32,041 bases of DNA, from assembly GCA_029251865.1 (NCBI GenBank), contig JAQXCN010000044.1:1-32041 (forward strand), given 5' to 3'. Both the position numbers and the translations under genes were made by a program. The notes under the pieces were generated by a model. It made no database searches and had not been told where the DNA came from. It saw nothing but the letters and a program-made list of their open reading frames with translations. Shown piece by piece: positions 935-5,197 of this stretch (position 1 is the stretch's first letter; every line of letters starts with the position of its first letter). This DNA is from Crocinitomicaceae bacterium. GTDB lineage: Bacteria > Bacteroidota > Bacteroidia > Flavobacteriales_D > Crocinitomicaceae.

Positions 935-1098
935 CTTTCGGTTTTATATTCTGATTAACCTTATTTTTTCTTTGTTTACAAAAACATATTGTATGATTCT
1001 ACCATCTATATTTGATGTTCTGGTTCATTTAAGGCATTCTTAATTCGGATATTAGATCCCCTTATCCAAACTTTTCGACAAGTCTTACAAAAGAGTCT

Positions 1099-1587
1099 TT
1101 AATCTTTATTCATGGAGTGTATATCATTGTGCGTTTCTTCTATTTTATCTTTTACTTTTTGGATACTCTTGGCTAAAATAGCAAGTTGAGTTCGTTTTTT
1201 TATGGCCAACCACTTCCAACTATCCTGCTCATAGTCAATAGCACGAGCAACATGATATAAATTATGAAAACCAAACTCCAATAACCATTTCTGAGCATGA
1301 ACATTACCTTCACACCCATTTATCATAGCCATAAGATGCGCATACCCATTATCCATAAGCCACACCCTTGAATCTTCTTTTAATCTAATAGCAAATGAAA
1401 AGTGAACAAGCTCTTCATATCCATTTTCAACCAACCATTTTTGAAGATCTTGATTTCCTTCAACAGCTTTCGCCCAAGCCAAAATAACCATATTCGAATA
1501 TTGAATAGGGCGCAATGGCACTTTTGTCAAAGATTCCTTTTCTGACGTCTTCTCCTTGCTTTTTTTATTTTTCTTAAACCATCCCAT
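1099..1587 (-). CDS. Hypothetical protein made of four 25-residue W-L repeats
   Basis: I do not recognise a named family. The 162-residue protein has no signal peptide or membrane segment. A Lys-rich start (residues 1-20) precedes four consecutive units of exactly 25 residues: 36-60, 61-85, 86-110 and 111-135. Each unit has Ala/Ile-rich helix positions, then D/S-x-x-W-L, then (in units 1-3) a G-Y/F-x-x-L end. The conserved Trp falls at 51, 76, 101 and 126. The pattern looks like a short alpha-helical solenoid, so a binding or scaffold role is a reasonable guess, but no partner can be named. A charged helix (136-155) ends it. It lies 54 nt downstream of the SpmA/SpmB gene on the same strand and may be co-transcribed with it. 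ATG at 1587 is the only sensible start. Confidence 0.8.
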   Translation of the reverse strand: MGWFKKNKKSKEKTSEKESLTKVPLRPIQYSNMVILAWAKAVEGNQDLQKWLVENGYEELVHFSFAIRLKEDSRVWLMDNGYAHLMAMINGCEGNVHAQKWLLEFGFHNLYHVARAIDYEQDSWKWLAIKKRTQLAILAKSIQKVKDKIEETHNDIHSMNKD

Positions 1588-1641
1588 GATACAATTTATA
1601 AAAAATTGAAGTTAAATAAATATGAAATAATAGAAATACGC

Positions 1642-2868
1642 TTAACCGAAGAATATATAGGACACGATAATTGCTGCTATAATACCAATTAAATCAGCAA
1701 ACAAACCAGCTGTTACAGCATAGCGTGTTTTTTTAATACCGACAGAACCAAAATATACGGCAATTACGTAAAAGGTTGTTTCTGTACTTCCTTGCATCGT
1801 CGCCGCAATCAGTTCTTGAAGGGAACCAACACCGAAATTATTCATAACCTCAACGTACGCACCTCTTGCCCCACCACCACTCAGGGGTTTCATAAATGCA
1901 ACAGGCAAAGCATCAACCCATTCCGAGACGGATAAACCAACACCCAAAACCAACCACCGAATTGCATCGAGAATTCCATCTAATGCACCAGAAGCGCGAA
2001 ACAGCGCAATGGCGCACAATATGGCGATCAAATAAGGAATAATGCTGATCGCAACATTAAAGCCTCCTTTTGCACCATCAATAAATGATTCATAGACATT
2101 AACTTTTTTCCGAATGGCCAAGAGTATAAATACTGAAATTATGCTAAACATAATACCACCACCAACCACTACAGAGATCGCTTCGCCTTGACTCGGGTGC
2201 TGAACTACATAATGGAGCAACAAACCAATCAGAAGAGATAATCCTCCGAGGTATGAAATAACTGTGGGGTTAAAGAGATTAATTTTTTGTCTAATGGCTA
2301 CAAAAGTCAAACCTGCCAAAGAAGCTATGAACGTTGAAATAAGAATCGGTAAAAAAACCTCAGTTGGTGATTCTGCACCACTTCTTAAAGCGAAAATCGA
2401 AATTGGTATAATCGTTAAACCAGATGTATTTAAAACCAGAAACATAATTTGTGCATTAGATGCACGGTCCTTGATTGGATTAATTTCTTGTAATTCCTTC
2501 ATCGCCTTTAAACCAAGAGGTGTTGCCGCGTTATCTAAGCCAAGCATATTCGCGCTAAAGTTCATCATCATTGACCCAACAGACGGGTGGCCCTCTGGTA
2601 TATCTGGGAAGAGTTTTGAAAATAATGGTGAAACTGCCTTAGTCAGTAGTTTAATAGCTCCTCCATTTTCACCAACTCGCATAATTCCAAGCCAAAGACA
2701 CATCGCTCCCGTAAGGTATAATGAAAGTTCAAATCCTACCTTTGCCGAAGAGGAAAGGCTATCAATCATATCTTTCATAACTGCATAATCACCTAAGAGG
2801 AATGTTTTGTAAAAACCTAACGCGATTGCTATTAAAAACATTCCAAACCAAATCCGATTCAATACCAT
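1642..2868 (-). CDS. Fused SpmA/SpmB nucleoside-recognition (Gate) domain membrane protein
   Basis: This 408-residue polytopic inner-membrane protein matches the fusion of spore maturation proteins SpmA and SpmB found in many non-sporulating bacteria. The N-terminal half (about 1-195) contains the SpmA-like core with M-M-M-N-F-S-A-N-M-L-G-L-D-N-A-A-T-P-L-G, a hallmark of the family. The second half (about 205-408) resembles SpmB, with L-S-G-G-G-A-R-G and G-S-T-E-T-T-F-Y. Both halves carry Gate (nucleoside recognition) type segments. The transported substrate is not established; in Bacillus the separate proteins affect spore-core dehydration, a role that cannot apply here. The length fits the fused family. 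The gene is divergent from the subtilisin gene across 157 bp and precedes the 25-residue repeat gene. Confidence 0.87.
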   Translation of the reverse strand: MVLNRIWFGMFLIAIALGFYKTFLLGDYAVMKDMIDSLSSSAKVGFELSLYLTGAMCLWLGIMRVGENGGAIKLLTKAVSPLFSKLFPDIPEGHPSVGSMMMNFSANMLGLDNAATPLGLKAMKELQEINPIKDRASNAQIMFLVLNTSGLTIIPISIFALRSGAESPTEVFLPILISTFIASLAGLTFVAIRQKINLFNPTVISYLGGLSLLIGLLLHYVVQHPSQGEAISVVVGGGIMFSIISVFILLAIRKKVNVYESFIDGAKGGFNVAISIIPYLIAILCAIALFRASGALDGILDAIRWLVLGVGLSVSEWVDALPVAFMKPLSGGGARGAYVEVMNNFGVGSLQELIAATMQGSTETTFYVIAVYFGSVGIKKTRYAVTAGLFADLIGIIAAIIVSYIFFG

Positions 2869-2925
2869 ACTACTAATTTCGAATTTATTTAATTAAAAAC
2901 TTAAACCTCAACAAAAAGCTATTAA

Positions 2926-2933
2926 CAAAACTA
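2926..2933 (-). promoter_or_regulatory. Candidate -7 element for the SpmA/SpmB gene
   Basis: On the minus strand this reads TAGTTTTG, matching TAnnTTTG, 57 bases before the ATG. No clear -33 TTG is seen at the expected distance. One such match is expected by chance every few kilobases, so confidence is modest. Confidence 0.4.
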
Positions 2934-3013
2934 TTTTAATCTCCAGCTTGAATAAATGAGGTAATAACTCATTTGCAACCATTTGAAAGAATCGTAATCT
3001 AAGCCCTTTTCAT

Positions 3014-3021
3014 TACATTTG
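3014..3021 (+). promoter_or_regulatory. -7 element immediately before the subtilisin ATG
   Basis: TACATTTG matches the Bacteroidota -7 consensus TAnnTTTG and ends four bases before the ATG at 3026. With usual spacing, transcription would start at or next to the A of the ATG, which would give a leaderless mRNA. No good -33 TTG is evident. Confidence 0.5.
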
Positions 3022-3025
3022 GATC

Positions 3026-5197
3026 ATGACACTTACTAAAAACCTGATTTTTTTGATACTCATAATGAGTTATCTCGTTGGTCACTCCCAAAATTTTTTG
3101 AGTAAAATTGACCAACATGATTTGAACGAAATATACCAGTCGTTTATTGAAAATAAAATAGATCAAGAGAAGCTTAATAAATTTTCAATTCAAAAGGAAG
3201 GATCTGATTATTTTATATCTCTTATTGCGAAGACTTCCGAAGCCTTCAGACCAAGTCAAATTGAAGCGCTCGGAGGTAAGGCGCGAAAAACAATAAATAA
3301 CATAACGAACATCAAATTACCGTTATCAAGTATTGAATCAATTCATGAAATTGAAAATATTGAATACGCATCGATTGCAAAAAAATTCAAACCTTTTATG
3401 GACAAGGCCTTAATAGATACTCATGCCGACTCAGTTCATCAGGGTCTAGGTGGATTATCTGAAGGATATGAAGGTGAAAATGTTCTTATTGGTGTTACAG
3501 ATTGGGGCTTTGACTACACATCACCCGTTTTTTATGACTCCCTACTGCAAGAAACCAGAATTCTCGCAGCTTGGGATCAATACAAGCTAAGCGGTCCGAG
3601 CCCACAGAATTTCAATTATGGTACAGAATTTAATACACCCAACGACTTAATGGCTGCAGGGAGTGACACTTCAAATATCTACAGCTATTCTACACATGGA
3701 ACACATGTGGCTTCAATCGCAGGCGGAAGTGCCGTAGGGACGGACTTTAAAGGAATTGCTCCTGGTGCTCAGTTTTTATTTGTCACCTTTCTTGTGAACG
3801 AAAGTGCTGTTCTCGATGCCTGGGAGTGGATGTATCAAAAATCACTTGAGGAAGGAAAAAGACTCGTTATTAATATGAGCTGGGGTCTCTATCATTTTGG
3901 CTCTTTGGATGGGAATTCGATTCTCAGCAGTGCAATTACGGCGTATACCGATTTGGGTGTTGTCTTCGTAAATTCAGGAGGAAACAATGGAAATGTTAAT
4001 TTTCATCTCAAGCATGAATTCAACGATGATACAATGGCAACAAGAATTCAATTTTATTCATACGCATCAAATCCAAATATGTGGGGACAAAGCATTCATA
4101 GTTGGGGAGAAGCTGGCAATTCATTCTCAAATAGACTTCAAATTAAAAATACTGGCGGACAAGTTGTTTCGGAGAGTCCTTTTTATAATACCGCAACACT
4201 TTCAAATTATGTAGATTCTCTTTTGGTAATTGATCAAGATACAATATGGTACAATATTTCTGCAGAAAATGAGCATCCTTTAAATGGCAGACCACAAATG
4301 CGTTTAAGGGTAAAATGTACATCAAGCGCCTATCGTGTGATGTTAAATGCTCATGCATCCGAAGGAACTGTTCACAATTGGAATGTTACAGAACTCACAA
4401 ATGATGTTGGAAATTGGGGCATGCCATTTTCAGCATATGGAACAGGTACTTTAAATGGAGATAAAAAAAATGGAATAAGCGAACCTTCATGTGCCGATGA
4501 TGTCATAAGCGTTGCCGCATATGCCTCTGGCTGGGTAACACCGACCGGTATAACCACTGGCGGGGCTATTGCTTCATTCTCCAGTCAAGGACCAAGATAT
4601 GATGGAATAATGAAGCCGGATATTGCAGCACCAGGAGTTTCTGTTGGTGCGGCTATTTCATCTTTTACTGACGCTTCCTATTCTTCTATTGAAAGTATAG
4701 ACTTTAATACAAGAACTTATCACTTTGCGAGACTCTCAGGGACATCTATGGCGGCACCCATGGTCGCCGGAGTAGCTGCTTTGTTACTCGATGCCAAACC
4801 AGAATTAGGTGCTAGGGACCTTAAGGAAATTCTTCTTTTAACAGCTAGAGAAGACAACAAAACAGGTGTACTTCCAGAACTTGGGGATCCTAAATGGGGC
4901 CATGGGAAAGTTGATGCAATGGCAGCAATAAGAGAAGCTCTTGATCTGGGAGTTTTTGACAACCTTCAACTTCAGAGTTCACTTCGGGTTTATCCAAATC
5001 CTGTAACCGAGATATTAACCATTGAAAATTTAAAAGGAATACCTACAGCCGCTCAATTAACAGATTTTACGGGTAAACAATTTGATATTGAACTATATGA
5101 AGGGCATGTAGATTGCTCAAATATTCAATCAGGTCTCTATATTTTGAGCTTTTCGATTGAAAACGAAGAACAGCGGATCACGTTCATAAAACAATAA
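3026..5197 (+). CDS. Secreted S8 (subtilisin-type) serine protease with type IX sorting domain
   Basis: This 723-residue protein is predicted to be an extracellular or surface endopeptidase. Residues 1-22 form a signal peptide ending in G-H-S-Q. A propeptide-like region (about 23-125) follows. The catalytic triad is visible: Asp159 in V-T-D-W-G, His224 in S-T-H-G-T-H-V-A-S and Ser574 in S-G-T-S-M-A-A-P. Asn320 (G-G-N-N-G) is the likely oxyanion-hole residue. The stretch between Asn320 and Ser574 is about 254 residues, far longer than the roughly 66 in classical subtilisin, so an inserted beta-rich domain is likely (about 325-480). Residues 650-723, with L-R-V-Y-P-N-P and a final K-Q, form a type A C-terminal sorting domain for type IX secretion. 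The GNAT gene starts one base after the stop. It probably supplies peptides for uptake; substrate specificity is unknown. Confidence 0.93.
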   Translation: MTLTKNLIFLILIMSYLVGHSQNFLSKIDQHDLNEIYQSFIENKIDQEKLNKFSIQKEGSDYFISLIAKTSEAFRPSQIEALGGKARKTINNITNIKLPLSSIESIHEIENIEYASIAKKFKPFMDKALIDTHADSVHQGLGGLSEGYEGENVLIGVTDWGFDYTSPVFYDSLLQETRILAAWDQYKLSGPSPQNFNYGTEFNTPNDLMAAGSDTSNIYSYSTHGTHVASIAGGSAVGTDFKGIAPGAQFLFVTFLVNESAVLDAWEWMYQKSLEEGKRLVINMSWGLYHFGSLDGNSILSSAITAYTDLGVVFVNSGGNNGNVNFHLKHEFNDDTMATRIQFYSYASNPNMWGQSIHSWGEAGNSFSNRLQIKNTGGQVVSESPFYNTATLSNYVDSLLVIDQDTIWYNISAENEHPLNGRPQMRLRVKCTSSAYRVMLNAHASEGTVHNWNVTELTNDVGNWGMPFSAYGTGTLNGDKKNGISEPSCADDVISVAAYASGWVTPTGITTGGAIASFSSQGPRYDGIMKPDIAAPGVSVGAAISSFTDASYSSIESIDFNTRTYHFARLSGTSMAAPMVAGVAALLLDAKPELGARDLKEILLLTAREDNKTGVLPELGDPKWGHGKVDAMAAIREALDLGVFDNLQLQSSLRVYPNPVTEILTIENLKGIPTAAQLTDFTGKQFDIELYEGHVDCSNIQSGLYILSFSIENEEQRITFIKQ

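Follow-up and report, generated by a model that had tools for sequence, protein, structure and literature searches.

In Bacillus subtilis, the genes dacB, spmA, and spmB form an operon. The latter two are listed, in the relevant part of a 2012 survey, among the widespread sporulation genes, with neither activity data nor structural characterization recorded for them at that date (PMC3533761). SpoVV, a Gate family protein of B. subtilis, is reported to carry dipicolinic acid across the outer forespore membrane and to resemble the concentrative nucleoside transporters (PMC5629000). How does the locus described here compare? It lies in a 32,041-nucleotide stretch of DNA from a Crocinitomicaceae bacterium, referred to below as the window. 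The likeness to SpmA/SpmB and SpoVV resides in one gene, which encodes a fused SpmA/SpmB protein (SpmAB) with two stretches matching PF07670 (Gate, nucleoside recognition; E 2.5e-18), and it concerns that gene only. The difference resides in the adjoining gene, which encodes a small protein built of predicted helical repeats; the parts of the two papers that deal with SpmA/SpmB and SpoVV mention no accessory repeat protein.

The features of the locus are collected in Table 1. The lineage to which the window belongs is not known to sporulate. The original prediction had placed the repeat gene correctly, leaving its strand unstated, and had described tryptophan-leucine (W-L) pairs at residues 51, 76, 101, and 126, which are present at exactly those positions. 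Units 1 to 3 were said to end in G-Y/F-x-x-L, and GYEEL, GYAHL, and GFHNL are indeed found there; the matching position of the fourth unit reads KRTQL. Additional Trp residues occur at positions 3, 38, and 124.

Table 1. Coordinates of the repeat-protein gene, its parts, and the SpmAB gene in the window
Feature	Position	Strand	Basis or remark
Fused SpmA/SpmB membrane protein, two Gate domains	1642..2868	minus	Upstream, codirectional; Pfam match
SpmAB/repeat-gene gap, 54 bases, no terminator-like site	1588..1641	minus	Gap inspected
Helical-repeat protein gene	1099..1587	minus	Open reading frame, 162 aa; homologues in relatives and class
N-terminal tail, residues 1-22, MGWFKKNKK..., aromatic-basic	1522..1587	minus	Low model confidence
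Unit 1, residues 32-56 (W51-L52)	1420..1494	minus	Predicted helices 32-42, 46-54
Unit 2, residues 57-81 (W76-L77)	1345..1419	minus	Predicted helices 58-67, 71-79
Unit 3, residues 82-106 (W101-L102)	1270..1344	minus	Predicted helices 83-92, 96-104
Unit 4, residues 107-131 (W126-L127)	1195..1269	minus	Predicted helices 108-117, 121-129
Unit 5, residues 132-156, long capping helix without W-L	1120..1194	minus	Predicted helix 133-160
C-terminal motif K-D-x-I-E-x-x-x-N-D-x-H, residues 146-157	1117..1152	minus	Row conservation

Is the repeat more than a chance pattern? None of 100,000 residue shuffles produced four W-L pairs in even register, with any step from 10 to 50 accepted. When residues 32-162 were shuffled 20,000 times, 10 shuffles reached the self-identity of 17.9% seen at a lag of 25, a match at any lag from 15 to 45 being counted. 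Conservation is a stronger argument than these statistics. In an alignment of 105 distinct homologues (45 rows from the window's own family, Crocinitomicaceae, 38 other near rows, and 22 distant rows), W is kept at positions 51, 76, 101, and 126 in 93, 94, 93, and 90 rows, respectively, and successive W-L pairs lie exactly 25 residues apart in 97, 104, and 103 rows. The 25-residue repeat in the window protein is real. Of the four equal, gapless units that had been proposed, the equal length stands and the number does not: there are five, the last lacking a W-L pair. Their predicted A-type helices begin at residues 32, 58, 83, 108, and 133. Repeat number, which might have varied among orthologues, is constant, with five units filled in all 105 homologues and the equivalent of residues 32-143 spanning 111 to 114 residues.

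Outside the W-L ladder, conservation depends on the lineage considered. The aromatic-basic tail, which has a pLDDT below 50 at residues 1-21 of the AlphaFold2 model, is FKK-like (by a pattern of our own) in 35 of the 43 Crocinitomicaceae rows other than L125 and L126 and in one of those two, as well as in 2 of the 38 other near rows and none of the 22 distant ones. In the C-terminal motif, K146 is conserved in 100% of Crocinitomicaceae rows and 94% of other near rows, E150 in 100% and 84%, D155 in 97% and 97%, and H157 in 97% and 94%; the motif is lost in the 22 distant rows. Along with these four, R74, N80, H84, and E93 make up the conserved polar residues of the near rows. Residue 40 was considered as a marker of linkage to SpmAB and rejected. 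It is K in 42 of 43 Crocinitomicaceae rows, and also in both rows of that family that are unlinked, and E in all 38 other near rows, so it marks lineage rather than linkage.

What fold would such units adopt? A compact alpha-solenoid of equal units had been proposed, and the secondary structure of two AlphaFold2 predictions agrees with it; both were made from shallow alignments (eight close relatives and one distant row), and the two targets, the window protein and a trimmed homologue from locus L010, are 43-45% identical to each other. The window protein (ten sequences) gave a mean pLDDT of 84.8 and a pTM of 0.76, with pLDDT values of 88-97 in ten-residue blocks over residues 31-150, and its nine predicted helices alternate with a period of 25. 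The homologue gave a mean pLDDT of 94.0 and a pTM of 0.87 with the helix pattern unchanged. Neither model contains strands. Tandem helix pairs of regular period, the mark of an alpha-alpha solenoid, are present in both, as a matter of prediction rather than experiment.

Comparison of the two models with known structures turned up only weak resemblances. Foldseek searches, which covered the PDB and viral structures, gave best E values of 0.81 and 1.5 in the PDB, nothing at E 0.001, and a best E of 0.47 among viral structures. In a further structural look-up, the top row for the window model was AhpD (Z 4.3, rmsd 3.7 over 93 residues). The L010 model was best matched by the phage Rap protein, which we take to be TPR-type (Z 5.7, rmsd 4.2 over 110 residues), followed by Sec17 and PPR proteins (PPR 6een, Z 4.9, rmsd 6.8 over 103 residues). 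For that model, the Z values of TPR and PPR chains range from 3 to 5.7; such matches are weak and may reflect a mere common arrangement of helices; HEAT, Sel1, and ankyrin chains are absent among the matches listed for both models. Judged from the models, the fold appears to be a generic helical-hairpin superhelix with a unit shorter than usual, and no novelty is claimed for it. The protein had been likened to a solenoid of a type that could not be named, which holds in part: the structural look-up offers weak matches to generic helical-hairpin superhelices (best Z 5.7), and DUF4116, the nearest in unit length of the repeats compared, shows no profile similarity beyond controls.

Might the fold carry an active site? 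R74, H84, E93, D155, and H157 could form one, making the protein an enzyme or a metal-binding protein on a helical-repeat scaffold, and their conservation of 76-100% in Crocinitomicaceae and near rows exceeds what a passive scaffold needs. However, D155 and H157 sit where the last helix ends and model confidence drops, and most distant rows lack them; no enzyme fold stood out in the structural searches, AhpD being the top row for the window model. We regard a catalytic or metal-binding role as improbable.

The relationship of the repeat gene to SpmAB is close within the window's family. Co-transcription of the two had been proposed and is likely, because the pair stays adjacent and the 54-base gap of the window shrinks to overlapping codons in several relatives. 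A 9/12 promoter-like match lies at 1615-1586 on the minus strand; 8 such sites occur in 950-3100, against a shuffle mean of 8.7. In 49 of 61 genomes of the genus, the gene just upstream, in the same orientation, is SpmAB, and the pair is adjacent in the four other genera of the family that were sampled, by one genome each (L044 to L047), with gaps of -4, 2, 51, and 1. The stop and start codons of the two genes overlap at L006, L008, L016, L017, L034, and L044. Gaps elsewhere reach 72 bases, plus a single one of 142 (L031), while negative gaps of 11 to 56 bases (L010, L026, L028, and L035) depend on the chosen start codon.

The remaining genomes of the genus show how the pair comes apart. Both genes are present on separate contigs in G041 and G052, where the repeat gene sits close to the end of its contig, and present but apart in G014 and G029. 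The repeat gene occurs without SpmAB in G012 and in G045, near a contig end in the latter. SpmAB occurs without the repeat gene in G018, G039, and G047, and neither is found in G031, G046, and G051. In G047, the repeat gene is gone from its usual place and a convergent gene lies 12 bases after SpmAB. Do orthologues stay beside SpmAB more widely? They mostly do within the window's family; outside it, no adjacency was seen in the neighborhoods examined, and at three loci of family f17 the two genes are convergent and 5.9-8.6 kb apart. The link to SpmAB is real and strong but local to the window's family.

Two genes with VanY D-Ala-D-Ala carboxypeptidase domains (L160:3735-5353) precede SpmAB (L160:2501-3727), and L161 is alike by eye. 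In this arrangement, found in G029 and G014, SpmAB does not adjoin the repeat protein, and the order resembles dacB-spmA-spmB of B. subtilis. At the f17 loci, S46 and S51 peptidases and a MORN protein lie between SpmAB and the repeat protein (L149 scanned; L150 and L151 by eye). An S8 subtilase adjoins SpmAB in the window (3026-5197), so that, together with f17, peptidases recur near SpmAB. At 176-934 on the plus strand, the window also encodes an NYN domain fused to an OST-HTH/LOTUS domain.

Has the repeat gene always been next to the same SpmAB? A tree of 57 SpmAB rows, in which several long branches were flagged, splits with 100/100 support into clade A (26 rows, mostly shorter) and clade B (31 rows, mostly longer), and 17 rows of clade A and 22 of clade B are adjacent to the repeat gene. 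The repeat protein of L034 is sister to that of L033 inside the clade-B-linked group (99/95, and 96/93 in a smaller tree), whereas the SpmAB of L034 belongs to clade A and that of L033 to clade B. A longer stretch of the L034 locus (L119) retains the flanking clusters c5 and c6, as at 13 clade-B loci. Monophyly of all clade-B-linked repeat proteins, a group named after the first tree, is rejected (p-AU 0.0012). The two histories conflict, which suggests that the partner was exchanged with adjacency kept; given the tree conflict and the retained flanks, the simplest reading would be that SpmAB was replaced in place. Recombination in the flanks needs no functional selection, and the exchange therefore supports, rather than proves, a working partnership. 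At a different locus, L145 (G159, family f63), SpmAB nests in the clade-B SpmAB of the genus (94/88) and the genome has no match to the repeat protein; this pattern suggests that the transporter moved horizontally on its own.

One reading of the exchange is that the repeat protein is a dedicated cytosolic subunit of SpmAB-type Gate transporters in a single family of Bacteroidota, drawn from a new 25-residue repeat family and kept with its slot while the transporter clade was exchanged. We know of no accessory subunit of an SpmAB-type transporter reported before. If true, this would be the first, and it would offer a handle on the substrate of the transporter; we think it rather unlikely.

How widely does the repeat protein itself occur? 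The window's genome has one copy, and by either query the protein is present in 92 genomes of a related set of 100 that includes this one. In a sample of the class, a narrow profile (A1) matches 87 of 296 genomes and a wide one (A2) matches 92, the distant A2 rows being 17-29% identical to the window protein. The 92 positives mostly carry one copy, with two in five genomes and three in one. In a sample of the phylum, the narrow profile matches 3 of 296 genomes, all in the window's order. Two distant genomes (L077:3515-4345 and L078:3935-4864) carry two diverged tandem copies, possibly a paired form. The SpmAB and repeat-protein pair of the window's family, with a repeat protein 43% identical to that of the window, also turns up on a contig filed under the actinobacterium Candidatus Planktophila lacus (L010, CALPOI020000018.1). 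Its gene order matches L128 of the window's family, and the contig is most likely misassigned.

Viral and plasmid sequences yielded no credible homologue. In a scan of viral contigs, none of 600 candidate stretches was confirmed as the repeat protein, and tblastn gave one match at E 6 against phages and none at E 1 against plasmids. A phage origin was considered and rejected: the PHROG family phrog_8035 (unknown function) has an E of 1e-4 with the window protein, but is matched by 1 of 28 members. Fusions were also set aside. In the class search, open frames of 259-652 aa surround seven homologues, and those at L065, L066, and L068 are judged to be chance read-through in G+C-rich DNA, with the real gene beginning at an internal ATG.

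This wide distribution bears on what the protein does. SpmAB is found in 52 of 92 repeat-positive genomes of the class sample versus 78 of 204 repeat-negative ones, a modest co-occurrence (Fisher p 0.004, a value that ignores relatedness). The other 40 of the 92 have no SpmAB match at E 1e-20, and the repeat protein therefore does not need SpmAB. Clustering of the genes around 70 loci, some of them duplicates of one place, showed that neighbors outside the window's family are mostly lineage-specific. The clusters that cross lineages are c11 (TonB-receptor-like by eye, 7 loci) and c3 (21 loci), the latter consisting, by eye, of envelope proteins with gliding-type C-terminal domains. The repeat protein might then be a general housekeeping scaffold of Bacteroidia, with a job unrelated to SpmAB and merely a shared transcript in one family. 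The genomes without SpmAB speak for this, as do neighbors that vary by lineage (TonB-dependent receptor-like, methylmalonyl-CoA mutase-like, and RluD-like, by eye) and the persistence of either gene alone in some members of the genus. On the other hand, the adjacency outlasts the apparent exchange between two SpmAB clades, and the codons of the two genes overlap in several genomes. A housekeeping role is a fair possibility, somewhat short of an even chance.

The reading that is tentatively preferred, at not far below an even chance, is that the repeat protein acts as an adaptor scaffold in the cytosol, working with SpmAB in the window's family. Its five 25-residue helical hairpins would stack rigidly as a single solenoid, and the W-L pairs would pack where each unit meets the next, as the predicted helices and their conservation suggest. 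In the window's family, the protein and SpmAB would be made from one transcript. The protein would be cytosolic (no signal peptide was seen by eye) and would most likely dock on the inner face of the Gate-domain transporter SpmAB, or hold a client protein there; it may thus attach to the membrane and might affect transport. The N-terminal tail, with its aromatic and basic residues, would help in this, as would the C-terminal motif. In other lineages of the class, the scaffold would act away from SpmAB, probably with other partners. If the partnership is right, the protein would provide a soluble handle for finding the cargo of SpmA/SpmB proteins.

Is the repeat described under another name? 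The original prediction would have fallen to a clear profile match with TPR, HEAT, Sel1, or ankyrin, and the profile searches gave none. The window protein has no Pfam match at E 1, models for TPR, HEAT, and Sel1 included, and these three are also missing among the 25 listed of 34 families matched by 28 diverse members. The best repeat model listed is Ank_4, in 2 of the 28, with a best E of 0.032 and a score of 15.0 bits that falls short of the 22.7-bit cut-off. The best family overall, LNS2_PITM1-3 (E 4.5e-5, 5 of the 28 members at E 1), was rejected as an identity. Ten members, not including the one with the E of 4.5e-5, were rescanned. Two of them matched LNS2 over spans of 24 and 48 residues, scoring 15.5 and 16.1 bits where the cut-off is 27.7, and no match to any family reached its cut-off. 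The weak Pfam matches of relatives are treated as chance. NCBIfam gave a best E of 0.039 with the window protein and 0.002 among the 28 members (TQXA domain, 6 members), and PADLOC had no match for the window protein. Among PDB sequences, the window protein alone had no match at E 10, and a profile had a best E of 0.74. The literature search found nothing on 25-residue alpha-solenoid repeats and, among the papers listed on short repeats, none on this family, judged by title. The repeat family is uncatalogued and conserved. With its wide conservation and a unit that is strictly kept and shorter than usual, it would be suited to structure determination and to repeat-protein design.

Could the protein instead belong to a known repeat family from which it has diverged strongly? 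DUF4116 (PF13475), a short helical repeat family, is the most plausible candidate, followed by ankyrin or TPR. DUF4116 units are mostly 25 residues long as well and in tandem, as L164 and four of the spacings at L165 show, and have an Ala/Leu-rich pattern and, by eye, paired helices. A first profile comparison gave P 0.0017, from six rows of which one was two residues out of register. The match did not hold: once 60 to 68 rows were used, hhalign gave P values of 0.076 to 0.34, and the apparent similarity was gone. In the controls, which included real TPR and ankyrin alignments, ankyrin was no worse (P 0.035 and 0.081), TPR gave 0.33 and 0.29, and reversed or shuffled profiles came close (best 0.11). 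A search of the window's genome for DUF4116 gave none at E 0.001, and the family is absent among the 25 of 34 families listed for the 28 members. The two repeats share a unit length, with profile similarity no better than controls. With the Ank_4 scores falling short as well, descent from any of these families is quite unlikely.

DUF4116 arrays vary in length and include some 22-residue units (L182), whereas the repeat protein has five fixed units, and DUF4116 lacks the W-L ladder. TPR and PPR proteins share stacked helix pairs and are among the best structural matches of the L010 model, but there is no sequence match, and their units are 34-35 residues long (34 in TPR) against 25 here. The second-helix pattern resembles LLLExGA of ankyrin by eye, and Ank_4 matches weakly in those two members; the ankyrin unit, however, has 33 residues with a beta-hairpin, the models have no strands, and the Ank_4 scores are below the family cut-off. 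Set beside all of these, the repeat very probably represents a variation on the solenoid kind already known, not something new in kind.
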